NCBI GenBank assembly: GCA_002781365.1
Contig: PETN01000091.1
Span: forward strand, 1 to 35,885
Source: Sulfurimonas sp. CG01_land_8_20_14_3_00_36_23
GTDB lineage: Bacteria; Campylobacterota; Campylobacteria; Campylobacterales; Sulfurimonadaceae
Direction of reading: 5' to 3'
Length of the DNA stretch: 35,885 nucleotides
Shown: one piece after another, positions 19,049 to 30,289 of the stretch
How positions within the stretch are numbered: the stretch's first letter is position 1
How the letters are laid out: every line of letters starts with the position of its first letter
Position numbers and translations under genes: made by a program
The notes under the pieces: generated by a model
Told to the model about the DNA's origin: nothing
The model's database searches: none
What the model saw: the letters and a program-made list of their open reading frames with translations, nothing else

Positions 19049-20173
<1,125 letters not shown>

Positions 20174-20241
20174 TTATATCCTAATAGCTAAATGATTTGG
20201 CATTATAGCATTTTGAAGATAGGAACAAACAATAGGAGCAT

Positions 20242-20252
20242 TTCCACATGCC
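20242..20252 (-). repeat. Uptake-like word between tgt and the GGDEF-EAL gene
   Basis: An exact copy on the minus strand, in the 98-base gap upstream of tgt and 13 bases after the stop of the GGDEF-EAL gene. Its place at a gene end resembles the copies at 9960 and 25485. Confidence 0.7.
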
Positions 20253-20265
20253 AAGAGTAAAAAAA

Positions 20266-22260
20266 TTAATTTGGAATATAGGTTTGATGGAAGCTCTCAA
20301 AATCTTTAACAGCGAGTGGTCTTGAGCAGTAGTATCCTTGATAGGTTGCACAGTCGATGATTCTTAAATACTCAACTTGTCCTTTCTCTTCGACTCCCTC
20401 TGCAATGATATCCATTTTGAGGGTTTGCCCCATCTTGACAATAGTTTCAACAAATATCGCACCTTCTGGTGTATGGTAGTCATCCATAAACAGCTTGTCA
20501 ATCTTCAATATATCAATAGGAAATTTCTTGAGATATGAGAGTGAAGAGTAGCCTGTCCCAAAATCATCTAGTGCAATCTTTATACCTTTGTTATGGATAA
20601 AGTTCAATACTCGTAAATTGTTTTTATTGTTTTCCAAAAAGAGATACTCCGTAATCTCAATAGTAATCTTTGAAGTATCAACTTGACTCTCTTGAAGTAG
20701 TGTTGTCAGTTTATACTCAAATGTAGGTTCAAGAAGCTGTTTTGCAGCAATATTAATAGCAATACTAATATCTAAGCCTTTCTCCTTCCATTTGAGTTGT
20801 TGACTGATTGCTTCTTTTAAAACCCAATCCCCAAGTTCTACTATAAATCCATTCTCTTCAGCAAGTGGAATAAAAACATTTGGAGGGATGAAGCCTTTGG
20901 CTGGACTTATCCATCGTATCAAGGCTTCTGCTCCAACTATAGCGCCAGATTTTACATCTGTTTTTGGTTGATAGTAGAGTTCATACTCATTATTAATAAG
21001 TGCTTGGCGCATCGTTTTATCAAGCGCAATTGTCTCTTGCACTTGTTTATTGAGTGCATCTGTAAAAAAGTGATACTGCGCGCGACCCTCTTTTTTCGCT
21101 TCACTCATCGCCATGCTTGAGTGTTGCATAAGAGATGTGATGTCAACCCCATCCTTAGGATAAAAAGCAATCCCGATACTGCTTGAAATAGTTATAGGAT
21201 TTGTTTGTATAACCCATTGGTCATTAATAGTCTGTTGTATTCTATCTATGATATTTGTTAGTTCACTCAGTGTGTCGTACTGGTGCAGAACTACAACAAA
21301 CTCATCTCCACCAACACGGGCTACAAAATCATTCGAAGGAATAGCTGCTGTAATTTTTGAAGAGACATTTTTTAAAAGTTCATCCCCTATGAGATGCCCT
21401 AGTTCATCATTCACTGTCTTAAAATGGTCAATATCTAAAAAAAGAAATGCAAACTCTTTGTTCGTATGGAGAGCATCTGCGATTAAACGCTCTGTATATT
21501 CGTTAAGTGCATTACGATTTGCAAGCCCACTCAAGCTATCTGTTCGTGCCATAGCATAAAGCTCGTTTTGCTCTTCGTCGAGTCTTGCAAATGTCTGTGC
21601 CATAGAGGAGCGAATGGCTTCAAGCTCTTTGAGTTTAAAAGCTTTTGGAACAACATTGTGGTAGTAGGCGAACTGTCGTAACAACTCGAGTGGAGTAGCA
21701 ACAAAATAACGCACGACAAGCCAAGAAAGAAATATCACTAAAATCGGAAGCAATGCAAAGTAGAGTGCAAAATCCATTTTACTCGCTTCGAAATGTTCAT
21801 TTATCTCACTTCTGTCAAACAAAAACATAAGTCTCAATGTGTGTAATGCTTTCCCCTCGTAATACCTTATCCTACCCTCTATGCCTTTTTTGTGGTCTAA
21901 AACTTCATGGGATGTGAGTGTATCGTCATTAAATATATCTGTTCTTGAGGGAGCAGTTTTAAAATGAGGGTCTGTTGAAACTAAAACATCATTGTCATCT
22001 AGAATCAATATAGCTAAGATATAGTCATTGTTTGAGGCTGTTCTATCTAAAACTGCTCGATATGTATTTGCATTTAAATTATGGGTAATATTTTTAGAAA
22101 GTATATAGCTCAGTTCAGACATGTCATTTTTTAAACTATTTAAAATAACAGATGCCGTCTTCTCTTTTTGATCTAAAAAATATTTTGTAAACACAGAAGA
22201 TACAAGTGTAAGTATGATGAAAAGCATGATGAGGGCAAATTTTTGAATAGTTAGTAACAT
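20266..22260 (-). CDS. Membrane GGDEF-EAL c-di-GMP enzyme with periplasmic sensor
   Basis: The 664-residue protein has a membrane helix (about 8-27), a periplasmic domain (about 28-165), a second helix (about 166-190), a linker, a GGDEF domain (about 240-400) and an EAL domain (about 410-664). The GGDEF motif is intact (RVGGDEF, about 314-320), but the RxxD inhibitory site is lost (PSND). The EAL domain has its key elements: EALIR (about 441), EITEYLF, DDFGTGYSS (about 565) and EGVE, so phosphodiesterase activity is likely; both activities are possible. It starts 1 base after the stop of an orphan periplasmic binding protein gene, the arrangement of NspS-MbaA in Vibrio cholerae, so the binding protein is probably its ligand sensor. 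Confidence 0.9.
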   Translation of the reverse strand: MLLTIQKFALIMLFIILTLVSSVFTKYFLDQKEKTASVILNSLKNDMSELSYILSKNITHNLNANTYRAVLDRTASNNDYILAILILDDNDVLVSTDPHFKTAPSRTDIFNDDTLTSHEVLDHKKGIEGRIRYYEGKALHTLRLMFLFDRSEINEHFEASKMDFALYFALLPILVIFLSWLVVRYFVATPLELLRQFAYYHNVVPKAFKLKELEAIRSSMAQTFARLDEEQNELYAMARTDSLSGLANRNALNEYTERLIADALHTNKEFAFLFLDIDHFKTVNDELGHLIGDELLKNVSSKITAAIPSNDFVARVGGDEFVVVLHQYDTLSELTNIIDRIQQTINDQWVIQTNPITISSSIGIAFYPKDGVDITSLMQHSSMAMSEAKKEGRAQYHFFTDALNKQVQETIALDKTMRQALINNEYELYYQPKTDVKSGAIVGAEALIRWISPAKGFIPPNVFIPLAEENGFIVELGDWVLKEAISQQLKWKEKGLDISIAINIAAKQLLEPTFEYKLTTLLQESQVDTSKITIEITEYLFLENNKNNLRVLNFIHNKGIKIALDDFGTGYSSLSYLKKFPIDILKIDKLFMDDYHTPEGAIFVETIVKMGQTLKMDIIAEGVEEKGQVEYLRIIDCATYQGYYCSRPLAVKDFESFHQTYIPN

Positions 22261-22261
22261 G

Positions 22262-23140
22262 TTAAATCAAACCTATGGTAGGAAAATGTGACTCTTTCAT
22301 GCGTTGCTTCAACTCTGGAGATATATTTTTGTTTATCCACTCTATATCTTGAGTAGATTGAATAAACTCTTCATAGTTTAACTCTAACAAATAGGGTTTA
22401 ACCATCTTATAAAATTCACGTGGATTTTTCTCAAGTACATCTACAGCCCTATCAACTAGTTTTTTTAATTCACTGAACTGTTTTTGATGTTTTGAGAATG
22501 TTTTTTCAGTTGTAAACATGGCATCAATAACCAAGAGATTTAAATTGTCTTTTGTTGAAGCAATACTCTTAAATCCATGTTTGTTTAACTCTATATCATA
22601 GGGAATATATGTGACAATGATAGCATTTTTGACAGTGCTACTAGAGAGCGTCGATATGGATGTTTGGTCACGGTTGATATAGTTGATTTGCTTTTCATGC
22701 AAGTTATAGTTTTGTATGAAATCTTCCAAAAGAGTGCTATTTACAGAGTCCATCTCTAGATAGGCATTGATTGGCTCTGTACTTTTTTGTAGTTCTTCTA
22801 TGGAGAGATTACTCATAACCACATCCCCACCATTGGAGCGGTCAAAGAGCATTACAGGAATAAGTGAAGGCTCTTTTTTGATGAGCATATTATACTCATA
22901 CTGTGTTCCTACATAAGCGTCTGCATTGCCTGCTTGATAGAGGTACATATTTTCACTGAGTGAACTTACATGCATGAGCTTGATATTGAGAGGCTTAAGC
23001 CACCCTTTTTCTTTAGCATAAAAAAGAGGGGAATAGCCAATCCATGTTGTTGTAGAGATTTCTAGTTTCTCTTGTTTTTCAGAGGAGCAAGAGGTTAATA
23101 AAAATAAAAGAGTCATGAATAATAAGAGATGCTTATACAT
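22262..23140 (-). CDS. Lipoprotein substrate-binding protein, NMT1/THI5-like
   Basis: The 292-residue protein has a lipoprotein signal (LLFLLTSC, lipidated Cys about 18) and a periplasmic binding fold of the NMT1/THI5/SsuA group: TTTWIGYSPLFYAKEKGWL near the start, GNADAYVGTQYEY (about 72-84) and a C-terminal helical lobe. Such proteins deliver pyrimidines, sulfonates, taurine or related ligands to ABC importers, but no permease or ATPase gene is present. Instead the next gene, 1 base away, is a GGDEF-EAL enzyme. I infer a sensory rather than transport role. AAAGG precedes the ATG. Confidence 0.85.
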   Translation of the reverse strand: MYKHLLLFMTLLFLLTSCSSEKQEKLEISTTTWIGYSPLFYAKEKGWLKPLNIKLMHVSSLSENMYLYQAGNADAYVGTQYEYNMLIKKEPSLIPVMLFDRSNGGDVVMSNLSIEELQKSTEPINAYLEMDSVNSTLLEDFIQNYNLHEKQINYINRDQTSISTLSSSTVKNAIIVTYIPYDIELNKHGFKSIASTKDNLNLLVIDAMFTTEKTFSKHQKQFSELKKLVDRAVDVLEKNPREFYKMVKPYLLELNYEEFIQSTQDIEWINKNISPELKQRMKESHFPTIGLI

Positions 23141-23362
23141 TTAAAAATAACCTTTCATTGAATTTCGCACAAATATTAGCATATTTTTTATAGAAAAGAT
23201 GAATATTTATCCTAATAATATTGACTTTATATAAATACATAACATTTTTGTCCATAGAGTTTAAAATCACGATGTTGCTTAAAATATCTAATTGAATTGT
23301 TTAATAATAAACAATGATTCCTTTAAGTAAAATCACAAAAAAAATTAAAAAAAAGTATATAT
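23141..23362. promoter_or_regulatory. Divergent promoter region between two c-di-GMP units
   Basis: These 222 very AT-rich bases lie between the divergent binding-protein gene and the GGDEF gene at 23363 and must hold promoters for both. I could not identify a convincing -35/-10 pair or an operator. The plus-strand gene lacks a recognisable ribosome binding site. Confidence 0.3.
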
Positions 23363-24835
23363 ATGAATGAAAATAACTCTTTTTTACCAGAAACCTTAGA
23401 TGTTGCCTTTAAATATTTAAAGTTTTCAACCTTGGCGGCTTTAGGGAACGTTGTCATAGTTGCCCTATTTTTACATGGCAGTTTATCTGATGCAGTTTTA
23501 GGAGAGTGGGTGCTCTTTGCCACTCTCGTTACTGCTTCAAGATTGCTTCTAATGAGATATTATTTAAAAAACACAGAGAAATTTACTACAAAACAGTGGG
23601 AGAATTTTTTTACAGTTGGAGTTCTCTTTGGCGCTTCAATCTGGGGCTTGACTCCCTTTATCTTATTTGATGACTCAAATGTGTTGAATCAAGCAATGCT
23701 TCTGTTTGTGTTAGCTGGAATCAGTGCAGGCTCTATCGCATCTTTGTCCTCACACCCAAAGTCTATTCAACTTTTTGTACTGATTACTTTAATCCCTCTA
23801 ATCGTAAAACTTCTTACTATAAATGAAGAGATATATTACTATCTAGCCTTTCTTTGTTTTTTATTTTTGTTAATGCTTTTTAATACTGCGAAGGTATTTC
23901 ATAATAACCAGATTAAATATTTAACATCTCAAAAAGAGCTGACTCTTTCAAACAACTATCTTAAAACGATTATTGAACATGCTCCTGTTGGAATCTTCAC
24001 TTATGATAAAAATTTAGTTATATTAGATGGTAACAATGAGCTTTCAAGCATACTCAAAGCCCCTTTAGATTATTTGATAGGTCTTGATCTGCATACTCTG
24101 CCAGATACGAGAATTTTACCTACAATCAAATCTCCACTTGAAAATCTCAATGGCTTTTATGAGGGAGAGTACATTACGGGTTACAGCTCCACTAAAATGT
24201 GGGTAAGAATCTATACAACAGCTATTTTCAATGAGCACAATAGTGTGAATGGTGGCTTGGGAATTGTACTTGATATTACAGAGCGAGTAAAAGTGGAAAA
24301 ACAGTTTGAGTATAAGGCAAAGTATGATGCGCTGACAGGTATTCCAAATAGATACACACTTATGGATAGATTGTCCCAAGAGATTATTAGGTTCAAAAGA
24401 CATAACATTATCTTTGCCGTAGTATTTATTGATTTAGATCACTTTAAAAACATAAACGATACCTTTGGACACGCTGTGGGAGATGAGCTTCTCTACGATA
24501 TGGCACAAAGATTACAACATGCCATCCGAGAGGGGGACATGGTTGCAAGGTTAGGCGGCGATGAGTTTATTTTACTCTTATCTGATTTATCGACAGAGAG
24601 GGAGATAGCAATGCAAAAAGCCGAGCTTGTTGTAGAAAATGTAAACAGTGCTTTTTGCGACTCCTTTAAAATACAAAATAATATCTTAGATGTTACGCTC
24701 AGTATTGGTATCGCTCTTTGTAGTTCAGAAGTTACCCCTGATGATATACTCAAGCATGCAGATACAGCTATGTATAAAGCTAAAAAAGATGGCAGAAATT
24801 TGAGTAGATTTTATGAAAACTCAATGGAGCAGTAA
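23363..24835 (+). CDS. Polytopic membrane PAS-GGDEF diguanylate cyclase
   Basis: The 490-residue protein has about six N-terminal membrane helices (residues about 15-175, a MASE-like sensor I cannot name), a PAS domain (about 200-310, TIIEHAPVGIFTYDKNL to LDITERVKVE) and a GGDEF domain (about 320-485). The catalytic motif is intact (RLGGDEF, about 396-402) and REGD upstream fits the RxxD inhibitory site, so it should make c-di-GMP under feedback control. It is divergent from the binding-protein/GGDEF-EAL pair and 72 bases upstream of efp. Confidence 0.9.
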   Translation: MNENNSFLPETLDVAFKYLKFSTLAALGNVVIVALFLHGSLSDAVLGEWVLFATLVTASRLLLMRYYLKNTEKFTTKQWENFFTVGVLFGASIWGLTPFILFDDSNVLNQAMLLFVLAGISAGSIASLSSHPKSIQLFVLITLIPLIVKLLTINEEIYYYLAFLCFLFLLMLFNTAKVFHNNQIKYLTSQKELTLSNNYLKTIIEHAPVGIFTYDKNLVILDGNNELSSILKAPLDYLIGLDLHTLPDTRILPTIKSPLENLNGFYEGEYITGYSSTKMWVRIYTTAIFNEHNSVNGGLGIVLDITERVKVEKQFEYKAKYDALTGIPNRYTLMDRLSQEIIRFKRHNIIFAVVFIDLDHFKNINDTFGHAVGDELLYDMAQRLQHAIREGDMVARLGGDEFILLLSDLSTEREIAMQKAELVVENVNSAFCDSFKIQNNILDVTLSIGIALCSSEVTPDDILKHADTAMYKAKKDGRNLSRFYENSMEQ

Positions 24836-24907
24836 GTTCAAATAAGAACTACGCTTAAGTGAATTTAGTGTAAAATCCAGAAATTATATTTAAAACAAGG
24901 TGTGTTT

Positions 24908-25474
24908 ATGGCAACTGTTGGCATGAGTGATATTAAAAAAAATGTTCGTATGATTGTGGGGGACGTACCCTATAAAGTGGTAGAGTTTCAACACGTTAAA
25001 CCAGGCAAAGGTGCGGCGTTTGTTCGTATGAAAATAAAAAGTTTTTTAAACGGAAAAGTGGTGGATAAAACTGTTCACGCGGGTGATAAGTTTGAAGTTC
25101 CTGAAATAACTTATACAACAATGCAGTATCTTTATGATGATGGCGAGCAGTACCAGTTTATGGATAATGACACGTATGAGCAACTTGGTCTTTCGTATGA
25201 GCAGTGCGATGACGCTTCAAAATGGTTCAAAGATGGTATCAATGTCGATATTATCTTCTACAAAGGAAACGCTATCTCTGTAAGTGCTCCGGAGACTATG
25301 GAACTTGTTATTACTGAAACACCGCCAAACTTCAAAGGCGACACTTCAAGCGGAAGCAAAAAACCTGCTACACTTGAAACAGGTGCAGTTGTTCAAGTTC
25401 CTTACCATGTTCTTGAAGGCGATACTATCAAAGTAAACACTGTTGAGTGTGAGTATTTAGAAAAAGTAAAATAG
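24908..25474 (+). CDS. efp: Elongation factor P
   Basis: The 188-residue protein binds the ribosome and relieves stalling at polyproline stretches. Three beta-barrel domains are recognisable: VGMSDIKKNVRMIVGDVPYK at the start, the modified tip in VKPGKGAA (the second lysine of KPGKG is the E. coli modification site), and the C-terminal signature around VQVPYHVLEGDTIKVNT. A GTG at 24902 is in frame but the ATG at 24908 (MATVGMSD) fits the family and has AGGTG upstream. Its last 11 codons and the hairpin after it are duplicated 3.2 kb downstream (28699-28779). Confidence 0.96.
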   Translation: MATVGMSDIKKNVRMIVGDVPYKVVEFQHVKPGKGAAFVRMKIKSFLNGKVVDKTVHAGDKFEVPEITYTTMQYLYDDGEQYQFMDNDTYEQLGLSYEQCDDASKWFKDGINVDIIFYKGNAISVSAPETMELVITETPPNFKGDTSSGSKKPATLETGAVVQVPYHVLEGDTIKVNTVECEYLEKVK

Positions 25475-25521
25475 CTACTGTTTTGGCATGTGGAAATTTC
25501 CACATGCCAAAGATTTAAATC
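25441..25521 (+). repeat. 81-bp direct repeat, left copy (efp 3' end plus hairpin)
   Basis: This copy covers the last 11 codons and stop of efp and the palindrome after it. It matches 28699-28779 at 79 of 81 positions without gaps. Together the two copies bracket the tsx-BMP-GGDEF genes. This is the functional copy, since it ends the intact efp. Confidence 0.92.
25482..25511. terminator. Perfect palindrome of two uptake-like words after efp
   Basis: TTTGGCATGTGGAAA is followed at once by its exact complement, a 30-base perfect palindrome with no loop, 8 bases after the efp stop. It is made of two inverted copies of the dispersed word, the way uptake sequences double as terminators in Neisseria and Haemophilus. 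Confidence 0.65.
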
Positions 25522-25652: not shown

Positions 25653-26495
25653 TTGCATTTTATCAAATACTCGCTCTTAGCATCTCTACTCATCACAACA
25701 TCATTAGTGTCAAAAGAGCCATCGGAGATTACCAACTCATCTTGGGCAAACCTCAATCTTTACAGAGGTATTGATCAAAGAGGCGGACCATATACTTTTA
25801 ACGATACATATGTAGAGTTGGAATTTGGCGGGCGATATGAGTGGCTCGATATGTACGGGTATATAGATTATCTTGATGTCTTGAATGACCCAAACAGTGA
25901 CAAGCATGCTCAGGAGAATTTTTTTGCAGATTTTGAACCAAGAATCTCCCTTGATTATCTTTTACAACAAGACCTCTCCTTTGGTGCTGTGGATGAACTC
26001 TTTCTTGCATTTGACCTCTACTATGGGGAAGCGGCACCTAGCATGAACAAGGGACTTAAAGTATTATGGATGGGCGTTGGAAGTAATATCAACATCCCAT
26101 GGTTAGGCTTAAGCGGTGTGAATTTGTACGCTAGATATATAGACGAAAACTACGGCGCAAGCAATGAAGGTGGCTTTGATGGTTACGATTTACATATCAA
26201 TTGGTTTAAACCTCTTTACTCCTTTTCGGATAAAAAGTTTATAGCATTTCAGGGGTATGCGGATTATGAGTTTGGAAGTAAAATGCCTCAAAATGCATTT
26301 GAAGAGACATATAGAACAGGTGATTCTTTTCAATCATATTTTGGTTTTTGGCTCCATGATGAAAAATGGGCTTTAGGGTATGGACTTAAACTCTGCAACA
26401 ACATGACACAGTGGAAAGATGGCCAAAATCTAAACGGTAAAATGACAGATACAACAGGTGCGGCACACTATTTTAATGTAACGTACAAGTTCTAA
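25653..26495 (+). CDS. tsx: Tsx-family outer-membrane nucleoside channel
   Basis: The 280-residue protein has a signal peptide (to about residue 20) and an outer-membrane barrel like E. coli Tsx: YTFNDTYVELEFGGRYEWLD, MYGYIDYLDVL, FADFEPRISLDYLLQQDLSFG, MGVGSNINIPWLGLSGVNLY and NYGASNEGGFDGYDLHINWF line up with Tsx segments in order. It ends in a terminal phenylalanine (YKF), as barrel proteins do. Tsx forms a channel specific for nucleosides. The open frame runs back to a GTG at 25584, but the TTG at 25653 has AAGGA seven bases upstream and begins right at the signal peptide. It is the first gene of a unit with a BMP-type binding protein and a GGDEF protein. Confidence 0.88.
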   Translation: MHFIKYSLLASLLITTSLVSKEPSEITNSSWANLNLYRGIDQRGGPYTFNDTYVELEFGGRYEWLDMYGYIDYLDVLNDPNSDKHAQENFFADFEPRISLDYLLQQDLSFGAVDELFLAFDLYYGEAAPSMNKGLKVLWMGVGSNINIPWLGLSGVNLYARYIDENYGASNEGGFDGYDLHINWFKPLYSFSDKKFIAFQGYADYEFGSKMPQNAFEETYRTGDSFQSYFGFWLHDEKWALGYGLKLCNNMTQWKDGQNLNGKMTDTTGAAHYFNVTYKF

Positions 26496-26504
26496 GGATA
26501 AAAG

Positions 26505-27512
26505 ATGTTAAAAACAATATTTATACTCTTTATTACGCTAACGAGCTTACTCTTTTCAAAAGATATAAAACCTGTAATGATTTTTGACGCTGAGTATATT
26601 ATGGATGGCGCTTGGAATGAGTTGATATATAATGGTATTAAAAAATTTGAAAAAACAAGCGGTGTAAAAGTAGAAATTTTAGTTATACCAAATATTAAAG
26701 AGTATAATGAAAAGATTGCACTTTATGCAGATAGAGGATATGACCCAATTATGCTAAGCGGTGTAGAGTCCTCAAGGGAACTTGTAAAGTCAACTATGTT
26801 AAAGCATTCACAAACAAGATTTGTAATTTTTAACGGCACTTTTAATATGCCAAATGCACACTACTTTATATTCTCATTCCAAGAGAGTTCATTTTTAGCG
26901 GGTTACTTAGCGATTAAAAAGAGTAAAACTAAAAAAATAGGCTTTATTGGTGGCGTAGATATGCCAGCTCTAAGAAATTATTTATGCGGATATATAAAAG
27001 GCGCAAAGTATGCTGATTCAGACGCAGATGTGCTATATGATTTTATAGGCAATGATTTTCATGCCTGGTCCGATCCTGACAAAGCGTATGCAATTACACT
27101 GAATCAGATAAAGAAGAATGCGGATGTTATCTTCCCTGCAGCTGGTGCAAGTACTTTAGGTGCATTAAAAGCTGCTGATGAGAGCAAAATCTTTTCTATC
27201 GGTGTGGATACTAATCAAAACCACCTCTATCCAAACAGCATATTAACATCCGTAATGGTAAGAGTCGATAATGCTGCATATAGAGCGTTGATGGCATCTT
27301 CCAGAGGTATATGGCGTGATCAGATGAAAGTAATGGGACTGCAAGAAAAGGGTGTTGAGTTGGCGTTTGACAAATATAATGAGCCACACATTGATGAAGC
27401 TTTAAAAAGGGAACTTCAAAATTTAGAAGCAGATATTATTCTAAAAAAAATAGATTTACCAGAGTATACTTTTACCAATGAGTGTGTTGTGAATGGGGTT
27501 AAGATCTTTTGA
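26505..27512 (+). CDS. Periplasmic BMP/PnrA-family nucleoside-binding protein
   Basis: The 335-residue protein has a signal peptide without lipobox cysteine (cleavage near LLFS, about residue 18), so it should be free in the periplasm. The Bmp fold shows VMIFDAEYIMDGAWNELIYNG near the start, YFIFSFQESSFLAGYLA (about 117-133), KIGFIGGVDMPALRNYLCGYIKGAK (about 143-167) and DVIFPAAGASTLGALKAA (about 204-221). The Bmp/PnrA family binds purine nucleosides, which agrees with the upstream Tsx channel. No transporter genes follow; instead the stop overlaps a diguanylate cyclase start by four bases (TTGA). Ligand inferred, not shown. Confidence 0.88.
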   Translation: MLKTIFILFITLTSLLFSKDIKPVMIFDAEYIMDGAWNELIYNGIKKFEKTSGVKVEILVIPNIKEYNEKIALYADRGYDPIMLSGVESSRELVKSTMLKHSQTRFVIFNGTFNMPNAHYFIFSFQESSFLAGYLAIKKSKTKKIGFIGGVDMPALRNYLCGYIKGAKYADSDADVLYDFIGNDFHAWSDPDKAYAITLNQIKKNADVIFPAAGASTLGALKAADESKIFSIGVDTNQNHLYPNSILTSVMVRVDNAAYRALMASSRGIWRDQMKVMGLQEKGVELAFDKYNEPHIDEALKRELQNLEADIILKKIDLPEYTFTNECVVNGVKIF

Positions 27513-28687
27513 AACATCCATGGTACTCCTCCATAACTGCAACGCTCTTGCTAGGAGTTCTGTTGGGACTTATTATACCCATAGGTACAGCTTCATGGTA
27601 CACGATGACAGTATACAAAGAGAGACTTTATGATGAGTTCCAAAACTACTGCTTTGAAACTACAAAAAATATTGCAACTATTATGTCTGATCCAATCTAT
27701 TACTACTCTCCAAATAACGGTAGTATGGCATTAGAAGTAACAAAAGCAGACACAAGAGTTGTAAAGGTCGAAGTTTATGATACTTTAAATGATATGGAGT
27801 TTATAGAATTTTACATTCCACAAAGAGAACTAGGTGCTTTATTTGAGTATAAAGAGCGGGTATTTACCAAAGATAATGAAGAGATAGGCTGGGTAAAAAT
27901 AGTCTTTAATGATTTTAAGCTTTCTCAAGATATAGAAGATAAAGAGGCGATTTTCCAAACTGTTTTTGGCTTGACCTTTTTAGTAATGATGCTCATAATG
28001 TCTCCTCTTTTATATCTTAAATTAATATTGCCACTTCAAAAACTACTACGTCAATCAAAAGATTTTAGAAAAAATAGGTTAGAAAATAAATTCCAATGGG
28101 ATGGAAAAGATGAGCTAAATATTTTAGGTCAAAGTCTAGAGTTGGCAAGAGTCTCAATTGTGGAACTCATTGGTACGCTAGAAGAAAAAAATGAGGAGTT
28201 GGAAACTTTACATATAACTGATAGCTTAACAGGGCTATATAACAGACATAAACTCGATTGGGAATTGTTAAGTGAGATAAATCGTGCTGATAGATTTGAG
28301 TACTCGTTTGGAGTCATTCTTCTTGATATTGATTATTTTAAAAGTGTAAATGATACATACGGTCATCTAGTTGGGGATGATGTGTTAATCGATTTAGCAA
28401 AAATTTTAAAAGAGAACACACGCCAAACTGATATAGTAGGAAGATGGGGTGGAGAAGAGTTCCTTATCATAGTTCCAAAAGCAGATGAAGAGGGCATAAA
28501 AAAGTTGGCAGAAACTTTAAGAGCTGCAATAGAAAACCATATTTTTAATCTTGTCAAAACAAAAACGGCAAGTTTTGGAGTAACACTCTTCATAGATAAT
28601 GACTGCATAGATACAATGATTGCAAGAGCCGATAAAGCTCTCTACGTAGCAAAAGAGCAAGGAAGAAATCAAGTTGTTTACAACTAA
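27509..28687 (+). CDS. Membrane GGDEF diguanylate cyclase with periplasmic domain
   Basis: The 392-residue protein has a membrane helix (about 10-33), a periplasmic region (about 34-148) suited to contact a binding protein, a second helix (about 149-172), a HAMP-like linker with a coiled coil (about 173-232) and a GGDEF domain (about 233-392). The motif is GGEEF (about 314-318), with RQTD upstream as RxxD inhibitory site, so it should be an active, feedback-inhibited cyclase. The TTG start lies within the BMP-gene stop (TTGA), implying coupled translation and a shared function. Confidence 0.9.
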   Translation: MKHPWYSSITATLLLGVLLGLIIPIGTASWYTMTVYKERLYDEFQNYCFETTKNIATIMSDPIYYYSPNNGSMALEVTKADTRVVKVEVYDTLNDMEFIEFYIPQRELGALFEYKERVFTKDNEEIGWVKIVFNDFKLSQDIEDKEAIFQTVFGLTFLVMMLIMSPLLYLKLILPLQKLLRQSKDFRKNRLENKFQWDGKDELNILGQSLELARVSIVELIGTLEEKNEELETLHITDSLTGLYNRHKLDWELLSEINRADRFEYSFGVILLDIDYFKSVNDTYGHLVGDDVLIDLAKILKENTRQTDIVGRWGGEEFLIIVPKADEEGIKKLAETLRAAIENHIFNLVKTKTASFGVTLFIDNDCIDTMIARADKALYVAKEQGRNQVVYN

Positions 28688-28698
28688 GAACGAGATAG

Positions 28699-28779
28699 TG
28701 TTGCGTGTGAGTATTGAGAAAAAGTAAAATAGCTACTGTTTTGGCATGTGGAAATTTCCACATGCCAAAGATTTAAATC
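28699..28779 (+). repeat. 81-bp direct repeat, right copy (efp tail relic plus hairpin)
   Basis: It begins 12 bases after the GGDEF gene stop. It copies the end of efp, but one of its two changed bases turns the Leu codon into TGA (reading VACEY then stop), so the efp tail is a relic. Its last bases include the stop codon of the modC remnant coming from the other strand. Confidence 0.92.
28740..28769. terminator. Perfect palindrome of two uptake-like words after the GGDEF gene
   Basis: Identical to the palindrome after efp. It lies between the convergent GGDEF gene and modC remnant and could end transcription from both sides. Confidence 0.65.
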
Positions 28780-29516
28780 GCAGAGAGTGTTGCTTCTTGC
28801 GAATCTAAAACAATCTCTACAATCTGTTGCCCTATGGCTACAACGGCTAAGAAAATTACATCTGCTTTTATGATCTCTAAAATCTCTCCCTCAAAGCTGA
28901 ACTTCTGGCTTCCTTTGGTTTGTAAAAGTACCTCTTTTGGAGTTGCGTCTTTGATGATTTTTCCATTTTTTAGAAGAAGAACACGCGAAGCGAGACGGTA
29001 GATTTCACTTGGGTCATGGCTCACCATGATAGTAGTCATATCAAACTTTTTATGGAGAGTTAAGATGTCTTGTTGAAGCTTGGCACGCATGAGTGGGTCG
29101 AGTGCTGAGAGTGGTTCATCCATGAGTAAAAGTTTTGGTTTACTCATGAGTGCACGACAGAGTGCAACACGCTGTTTTTGCCCACCACTGAGTGTTTCAG
29201 GATAGCGGTTTTTGAGTTCACCAAGCTCTGTGAGTTCAAGTAAAGAGCGCGCCAACTCAGGGTTGTTGCTTACATAGAGCAGATTTTTCTCTACACTCAT
29301 GTTTGGAAAAAGTGCATAGTCTTGAAACAAAAAGCCTATGCCTCTTTGGTTTGGAGCTTTGTTCACTTTGGAGCCTAGCCATGTCTCATCGAACACATCT
29401 ATCTCGCCGCTTGCACTCTCTAATCCTGCTAAAATTCTCAAAAGCGTTGTTTTTCCACTTCCGCTTGGTCCCGCGATGGCTAGAAACTCACCTTTTTTTA
29501 TGTTTATATTTACATC
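28773..29516 (-). pseudogene. modC: modC remnant (molybdate ABC transporter ATPase)
   Basis: The frame from 29516 contains a full ABC ATPase core: Walker A GPSGSGKT, Q-loop FLFQDYALFP, signature LSGGQKQR, Walker B LLLMDEPLSALD and the switch VSHDP, ending with part of a TOBE-like domain. It has no proper start: the first residues (DVNINIKKGEF) come directly after a TAA that ends the modB fragment in the same frame, and the first later start codon (TTG, 29441) lies after Walker A. The C-terminus stops inside the 81-bp repeat and is probably shortened. I judge it non-functional. The family call is based on the ATPase core plus the modB-like and Mop-like neighbours. Confidence 0.8.
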
Positions 29517-29879
29517 TTAATGCATCTGTGCTTCACTTCCATGAAGCTCTTTTTGTACACGTACCATAAAAGGAAAAGAGTAAAAACAGCTAGCGATGAC
29601 AAGTCCTGTAAAGTTAAAAACCATCTTTATGCCAAAAGTCTCTTGCATAAAAACACCGATAGGCGAGTTATGCGAAAGTGTAAAAAGGATATAAAACCCC
29701 AAAACCGAAGGTAGCAAAACGATAGGGAGAGAGACAATAGCCTCGATGAAAGGCTTCACTTTTCTTTTTGTTTGACTCAGACACCAACTCAGCGGAATGG
29801 CGATAAAAAAGAGTATGAGCGTAGTGAGTCCTGCCAACTTAAAAGAGAGCAAAAACGGTTCAAAATCTAAGGCACTCAT
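29517..29879 (-). pseudogene. modB: modB fragment fused in frame to the start of modC
   Basis: The first 105 or so residues match the N-terminal half of a molybdate permease: membrane helices at about 10-35, 42-70 and 88-105, with PIVLLPSVLGFYIL. It breaks off after YSFPFMVR, before the conserved permease EAA loop. The next residues (KELHGSEAQMH) look like the beginning of ModC, so a deletion seems to have joined the two genes in frame. A TAA (probably from TTA Leu) then ends the frame. Usual length is about 220 residues. It overlaps the preceding Mop gene by four bases. Confidence 0.78.
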
Positions 29880-30289
29880 AGCTTCTCTTCTCCGTTTTCA
29901 AATGATGTTATCGAGACATCGCTTGCTTTTATGAGCGCGATGATTGTATCGCCCACTTTTATATCCATCTTTAAAGCGGAGCTTTGTGTGATGATACTCT
30001 CTAAGATTGTATCTTGGAGTTTGATTCTCACACTGCAAAGAATCTCTCCGCTGTCCATCTCATAAATCTCGCCTTGGAGCTGGTTGGAGATAGATATTTG
30101 CGTCTCTATCTCTTTTGCTAGAGAAATATCTGTCGCTTTGGCTTTGATGGTTACTTCTGAACCTATTTAAAGCTTTTCATTGAGTTCCAAGGCAACCATA
30201 CTCATCTTAAATCCGAGTGAATCAAAGCTCAAAGCAGATACATTTTGATACTTTTTTATATCTGTAATCGTTGCTTTTATCTGGTTCAT
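29876..30289 (-). pseudogene. Mop/TOBE-domain molybdate-binding protein with internal stop
   Basis: Reading from an ATG at 30289, 138 codons encode two tandem Mop (TOBE) domains, as in ModE C-termini and molbindins: MNQIKATITDIKKYQNVS begins the first and MDSGEILCSVRIKLQDT the second. A TAA at 30167-30169 interrupts the first domain after LELNEKL, just before the conserved GSEVTIKAKATDISLAK. The frame is otherwise open to the end. A shorter second-domain product from the ATG at 30058 (60 residues) is possible. The stop overlaps modB by four bases, as in an intact mod operon. Confidence 0.75.

Follow-up and report, generated by a model that had tools for sequence, protein, structure and literature searches.

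Three adjacent genes of a Sulfurimonas genome raise the question of whether a pore, a binding protein and a signalling enzyme encoded side by side can work as a single sensor of the cell's surroundings. The locus belongs to Sulfurimonas sp. CG01_land_8_20_14_3_00_36_23 (Campylobacterota) and lies in a 35,885-nucleotide stretch of DNA, contig PETN01000091.1, which was analysed as a whole and is called the window hereafter. Its positions 25653-28687 hold, intact and in head-to-tail order, a gene for a Tsx outer-membrane channel (tsx), a gene for a binding protein of the BMP/PnrA family and a GGDEF gene encoding a membrane diguanylate cyclase, the type of enzyme that makes cyclic diguanylate (c-di-GMP). 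A sequence-only reading of the locus had proposed that the trio senses extracellular nucleosides and converts them into a c-di-GMP signal. The three-gene observation is confirmed and its interpretation partly supported; the trio is real and unusual but a singleton so far, and its ligand is uncertain.

Three packed genes and an orphan binding protein

The first gene, tsx (25653-26495, plus strand), starts with a TTG codon behind AAGGA and encodes 280 amino acids with an N-terminal signal-like stretch and a match to PF03502 (E=3.5e-77). After a gap of nine bases, the BMP gene (26505-27512, plus strand) encodes a protein of 335 residues matching PF02608 (E=1e-48), and its end overlaps by four bases, TTGA, with the GGDEF gene (27509-28687, plus strand), which also has a TTG start and whose 392-residue product matches PF00990 (E=5.3e-45). 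Open reading frames (ORFs) and Pfam matches bear out the coordinates and families first assigned to the three genes, and both the gap and the overlap that had been described are present in the sequence. The BMP protein had been taken as soluble, which is likely given its one N-terminal hydrophobic stretch and a signal region without cysteine.

The cyclase is composed of a transmembrane segment, a periplasmic domain, a second transmembrane segment and the GGDEF domain. Its hydrophobic 19-residue windows begin at residues 5-14 and 146-159 of the hydropathy profile, and the roughly 113 residues found between the two hydrophobic stretches agree with the initial estimate of about 115. The active site is intact, as had been claimed, and the translation reads GGEEF with an RxxD I-site (RQTD) five residues ahead, while no match to an EAL domain was found in the protein. 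Residues 1-236 show no Pfam match over the cut-off (HAMP, with E=0.069, falls short) and no Cache family among the matches at E<=10, and the N-terminal part has no match in the PDB. In 228 genomes of the family, none of the candidates scored (up to eight per genome) was a full-length relative; the matches listed start at residue 146 or beyond, extend to the C-terminus and cover mainly the GGDEF domain. Viral contigs contained no relative of the periplasmic part.

The BMP protein, which covers positions 3-299 of the 301 of the profile, is the sole PF02608 match in its own genome, which is 2.43 Mb long with a stated completeness of 100. No match was obtained in this genome for PF02653, the BMP-type ATP-binding cassette (ABC) permease, in a search that was positive in 12 of 14 control genomes, nor for PF07662, the CNT nucleoside carrier (positive in 4 of the 14 controls), although these negatives cover the two families named, and NupG-type carriers, other carriers and genome-wide ATPases were not searched. 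Since neither a PF02653 permease nor a CNT carrier was detected, the protein is regarded as an orphan. The finding of an ABC permease for the BMP protein and needed for uptake had been named as grounds for abandoning the proposal, and PF02653 was not detected in the genome. The companion statement that no permease or ATPase is present stands for the operon and, genome-wide, for the PF02653 permease family; an ABC ATPase frame (28773-29516) does lie on the opposite strand, 85 bases downstream of the operon.

BMP-family matches above the cut-off occurred in just 1 of 397 phylum-sample genomes, the own one. Relatives of the protein were found in 1 of 135 genus genomes, again its own, and in 6 of 398 order-sample genomes, own included, with up to five candidates scored per genome in the latter search. 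In the order sample, each of the five other BMP genes has an ABC ATPase gene and one or more permease genes as neighbours, so the protein studied here stands without a transporter where its relatives have one. Similarly, at the best 80 of at least 583 related BMP loci, neighbour calls (phmmer, E<=1e-4; some contigs stop near the BMP gene) gave an ABC ATPase in 78 and a permease in 76. The DNA patterns of this alignment-based search favour canonical transporter BMPs, and orphan BMP/GGDEF pairs outside the phylum may escape it. A single-sequence search for close relatives of the BMP protein returned none among genome contigs or viral contigs, and for a weak match in genome G274, tblastn of the protein on its locus gave nothing. 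BMP matches were also present in 407 plasmid records, in 7 of which the neighbours were read, and in 11 phage records, which were left unread.

The fold of the BMP protein, as predicted, is that of nucleoside-binding proteins. Its model, built from 40 sequences with a predicted local distance difference test (pLDDT) score of 89.6, aligned best with guanosine-bound Lbp (7x0r_B; Z 37.2, root-mean-square deviation (rmsd) 2.6, 307 aligned residues), followed by PnrA (2fqw; Z 36.1, rmsd 2.4, 298 aligned) and 6shu (Z 34.9, rmsd 2.9, 307 aligned). Because riboflavin-binding RfuA (4iil; Z 33.8, rmsd 2.9, 295 aligned) and AtzT (6pi5; Z 32.2, rmsd 2.8, 301 aligned) score close behind the nucleoside-bound proteins, the ligand cannot be told from the fold alone.

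By analogy, the best reading of the trio would be that of a sensing unit of the NspS-MbaA kind made from new parts. Tsx would pass a small molecule across the outer membrane, and once in the periplasm the molecule would be captured by the soluble orphan BMP protein. In its loaded (or its empty) state, this protein would then dock on the periplasmic domain of the cyclase and alter the c-di-GMP output of the enzyme, as NspS does on MbaA or XylFII on LytS. Co-transcription, docking and the direction of the response are parts that we infer. Tsx, the fold and an aromatic clamp retained in the BMP pocket indicate that the ligand is probably nucleoside- or nucleobase-like. That the three genes constitute one transferred operon sensing a small extracellular molecule has, in our judgement, about an even chance of being right. 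The orphan BMP protein, the intact cyclase, the gene overlap and the nucleoside-binder fold all favour sensing as originally formulated.

Tsx (PF03502) and BMP (PF02608) are classic uptake families, as with BmpD and BmpA (PMC7093131 and PMC13325309), and the two proteins might instead feed an inner-membrane nucleoside carrier encoded elsewhere, with a cyclase that is merely co-regulated. Such an uptake operon is improbable, as the PF02653 permease and the CNT carrier went undetected in the genome (other carrier families were not searched) and the nearby ABC ATPase frame lies on the opposite strand, beside a TOBE ORF and an ORF of 120 residues.

A probable inserted block beside efp

An 81-bp direct repeat, which the sequence-only reading did not mention, brackets the three genes. 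The left copy (25441-25521, plus strand) is made of the last 34 bp of efp, which are the native end of this gene, a 26-bp perfect palindrome and flanks, and the right copy (28699-28779, plus strand), which begins 11 bases past the cyclase stop, carries a decayed efp end with two changes and the palindrome, so that the copies are identical at 79 of 81 positions. The palindrome, TGGCATGTGGAAATTTCCACATGCCA, occupies positions 25484-25509 and 28742-28767 within the two copies. The trio fills the space between the repeats, and there is no room for an integrase gene. Eight exact copies of the palindrome exist in the genome, dispersed and intergenic. The idea that the repeat is merely this dispersed palindrome was rejected, given that among the 9 sites read, out of 11 in total (the two unread carry three mismatches), no site other than the two on either side of the block showed the left part derived from efp. 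A terminator scan found none and did not call the palindrome, and no Rfam match reached the gathering scores.

The related genomes L150-L152 have a similar efp end, also accompanied by a version of the palindrome. In L150 and L152 an ORF for a putative amino-acid permease comes next, which in L152 precedes dnaE, and other GGDEF proteins are encoded near efp in L151 and L152. Searches by tblastn with Tsx, the BMP protein and the N-terminal part of the cyclase gave no match in the efp loci of the three genomes (about 9-10 kb each). The full 3.3-kb stretch matched 1 of 135 genus genomes, its own, with two candidates scored per genome, and the remaining matches covered the GGDEF domain or the efp end only. 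Two repeat copies flank the trio, and three related genomes lack it at efp; the genes therefore appear to be a single inserted block, accompanied by a duplication of the efp end. The composition of the block is not foreign-looking, with GC values of 0.34-0.39 and codon distances within the range of its neighbours.

The ABC ATPase frame downstream now ends inside the right repeat copy. It belongs to a region on the minus strand (28773-30058) that comprises this frame (28773-29516), the 120-residue ORF, which has no Pfam match, and a 60-residue ORF with a TOBE domain, and that is apparently the remnant of a molybdate-type transporter, not a partner of the BMP protein.

Ligand pocket and joint conservation

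A 2026 study of BmpA describes a pocket formed by F27, F151, F176, V224, D225 and K242, with D98, K242 and D225 positioned toward the ribose, and finds F27 and F176 indispensable in the case of thymidine (PMC13325309). These contacts were mapped by hand through a HMMER alignment, with a chain numbering six above that of the paper, and correspond in the BMP protein to W37, N110 (for D98), Y159, W188, V234, D235 and V252. In 89 aligned relatives, columns 37 and 159 are always F, columns 110 and 235 always D and column 252 always K, while column 188 is W in 80 and F in 9, and column 234 is V in 87 and C in 2; the conservation of D235 is partly a selection effect, as the D235 block was part of the patterns used to pick the BMP rows. 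W188, V234 and D235 are the same as in the relatives, and both clamp positions retain an aromatic residue. Six rows with a stop-to-stop frame above 450 residues (L034, L035, L077, L110, L118 and L138) were dropped from the 95-row alignment; five of them show the standard residue at all seven positions, and the residues of L034 are Y, G, L, W, V, D and K. With the dropped rows counted, all 95 relatives thus retain K, and 94 of the 95 retain D. Rows L070 and L192 are identical in sequence.

BMP genes away from transporters exist without change at the D and K positions: two alphaproteobacterial genes, L041 and L145, have no ATPase or permease in the stretch read and retain the usual D and K. The divergent row L034 (4923-6620) is a BMP gene of a Marinobacter conjugative plasmid that adjoins a ParA gene, has three pocket letters changed and encodes about 250 extra C-terminal residues without a Pfam match. 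It was considered as a BMP-effector fusion and rejected, Bmp being the only family that matched.

Several observations on the pocket, the cyclase and the distribution of the trio weigh against the sensing interpretation. Four of the seven contact positions of the BMP protein are unlike every one of the 89 aligned relatives, and two of the three ribose contacts are replaced (D to N at 110, K to V at 252). Over the whole protein, 86 columns reach 95% conservation among these relatives, and 35 of them are changed; of the strictly invariant columns, 4 of 5 are changed in the pocket and 2 of 17 outside it (p=0.009, one-sided Fisher test), an enrichment that vanishes at the 95% cut (p=0.18). The branch of the protein in the tree is extreme (8.15) and its placement unsure, and a loss of constraint on the gene is possible to judge from these alignments. 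An ordinary ribonucleoside appears doubtful as the ligand because the ribose-contact residues are replaced, and this part of the original sensing claim is weakened accordingly. The periplasmic domain of the cyclase has no family assigned and a poor model (single sequence, pLDDT 44.2). Furthermore, neither a Tsx nor a GGDEF gene was found at any of the 80 related BMP loci or of the five other BMP loci of the order. Joint conservation of tsx, BMP and GGDEF had been set in advance as a test of the proposal, and a second instance was found in no genome or locus examined. The trio is thus a singleton so far, and conservation of the linkage gives it no support.

The same pocket data would fit a change of ligand, in which the sensing mechanism is preserved and the BMP protein binds a non-nucleoside, for instance a nucleobase, a vitamin or another heteroaromatic compound. 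Changes of the type seen at positions 110 and 252 take away two of the three ribose contacts described for BmpA, the F of the relatives is W at position 37 and Y at position 159, and RfuA and AtzT are among the best structural matches, but V234, D235 and the aromatic residues of the clamp are retained, the adjoining Tsx hints at nucleosides, and the pocket enrichment rests on few columns and is lost at the looser cut. We consider such a switch a plausible option with somewhat less than an even chance, in part an overlap with the best explanation, so that the two are not exclusive. A more elaborate version of the sensing unit, a compact, transferable cassette with its own pore, binder and cyclase that entered behind efp as a single block, and in which a BMP protein freed from its transporter acquired a pocket adapted to a different cue resembling a nucleobase or nucleoside, is offered tentatively, at well under an even chance.

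Tsx is the sole PF03502 match in its own genome, where it covers positions 3-244 of the 244 of the profile. Matches to this family occur in 26 of 397 phylum-sample genomes, own included, and strong ones (E below 1e-80) in 8 genomes, all of one genus of another family. Its order relatives in genomes G296 and G369 are 62% and 60% identical, respectively, and no BMP or GGDEF relatives were found near them within 13-kb stretches. The different closest homes of tsx and BMP among the genomes searched suggest that the trio was put together from separate parts. In G369 (L154, 5819-8487) some 0.7 kb separate the Tsx gene from a tgt gene, and in the window tsx and tgt are 5.5 kb apart; this nearness in both genomes may be due to chance.

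The main rival to the sensing unit is loose cargo, a chance joint transfer of the three genes. In that case the BMP protein would be left over from a transporter operon since lost, Tsx would act as a general pore, and the cyclase would respond to a signal perceived by its own periplasmic domain. Such a history would agree with the lack of a second trio in the genus, order and related-loci searches, with the lack of BMP and GGDEF relatives in the 13-kb stretches around the Tsx genes of G296 and G369, with a highly divergent BMP protein of altered pocket, and with the trio being an inserted block. The tight packing, with its four-base overlap between the BMP and cyclase genes, and the intact frame and predicted fold of the BMP protein argue in the opposite direction, and we hold this history to be possible, at well under an even chance.

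Known systems and the neighbouring pair

In the NspS-MbaA system of Vibrio cholerae and Sinorhizobium meliloti, the state of a periplasmic binding protein sets the cyclase output of a GGDEF receptor (PMC8967002), and NspS binds polyamines (PMC9993111). The trio would resemble it in that a periplasmic binding protein, without a permease of its own and linked to a membrane GGDEF protein, acts on the latter and does not serve transport solely, and differs from it in the GGDEF domain alone without EAL, in the BMP-family binder and in the presence of Tsx. NspS is PotD-like and MbaA is a GGDEF-EAL protein, in a system that is not known to include a Tsx. On the side of the ligand, VC2224 of V. cholerae is a purine-sensing dCache_1PU cyclase, and inosine and guanosine raise c-di-GMP (PMC11245519). 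Purines are bound there by the cyclase's own sensor domain, whereas the trio has a separate binder and a periplasmic part of about 113 residues without a Cache match. Nucleoside control of c-di-GMP is therefore already known, but through the cyclase's own domain and with no binding protein.

The BMP protein is like PnrA, BmpD and Lbp in its fold (Z 33.8-37.2 to nucleoside-bound entries), its PF02608 match, D235 and the aromatic clamp, and unlike them in the absence of a PF02653 permease from the genome, in the replaced K and D ribose contacts and in the lack of a lipoprotein cysteine. Its fold matches also include the XylFII-LytSN entry 5xsd, in which a type I binder docks on a membrane sensor. 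LuxP-LuxQ and TorT-TorS are further cases of a type I binding protein on a membrane sensor, and all three of these systems signal through a histidine kinase instead of a cyclase. A literature search restricted to open-licence papers found, among those listed, no work joining BMP/PnrA-family proteins or Tsx with GGDEF control, nor one that linked extracellular nucleosides, c-di-GMP and biofilm. According to a 2022 review, the periplasmic-binding-protein clan has 27 families, and work on c-di-GMP networks had covered SBP_bac_3 alone (PMC8846402).

The signals for most diguanylate cyclases remain unassigned, and a cyclase with its own pore and binder, if the sensing unit is true, would have its signal class narrowed by genetics alone. 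It would also show the conversion of a transporter protein into a sensor and, if the ligand comes from lysed neighbours, would link nearby cell death to life on surfaces.

A second couple of this kind lies in the window, where a gene for an NMT1-like binding protein with a lipoprotein-type signal (22262-23140, minus strand) stands one base ahead of a GGDEF-EAL gene that directly follows it (20266-22260, minus strand). Relatives of the NMT1-like protein were found in 47 of 135 genus genomes (E<=0.001, five of them weak), and a GGDEF-EAL relative follows in 20 of the 20 best loci, own included. As judged by this gene order, the NMT1-like/GGDEF-EAL pair is the better-supported binding-protein/c-di-GMP couple of the window, conserved where the trio is not, and its occurrence in all 20 loci makes such pairs an established layout in the genus. 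The surroundings of efp vary on this side as well: the distance between tgt and efp is 27 bases in L150 and L152 and 0.8 kb in L151, and 4.7 kb (20168-24901) in the own genome, where it holds two GGDEF genes and a binding-protein gene. This 4.7-kb insert is a second gain beside efp.

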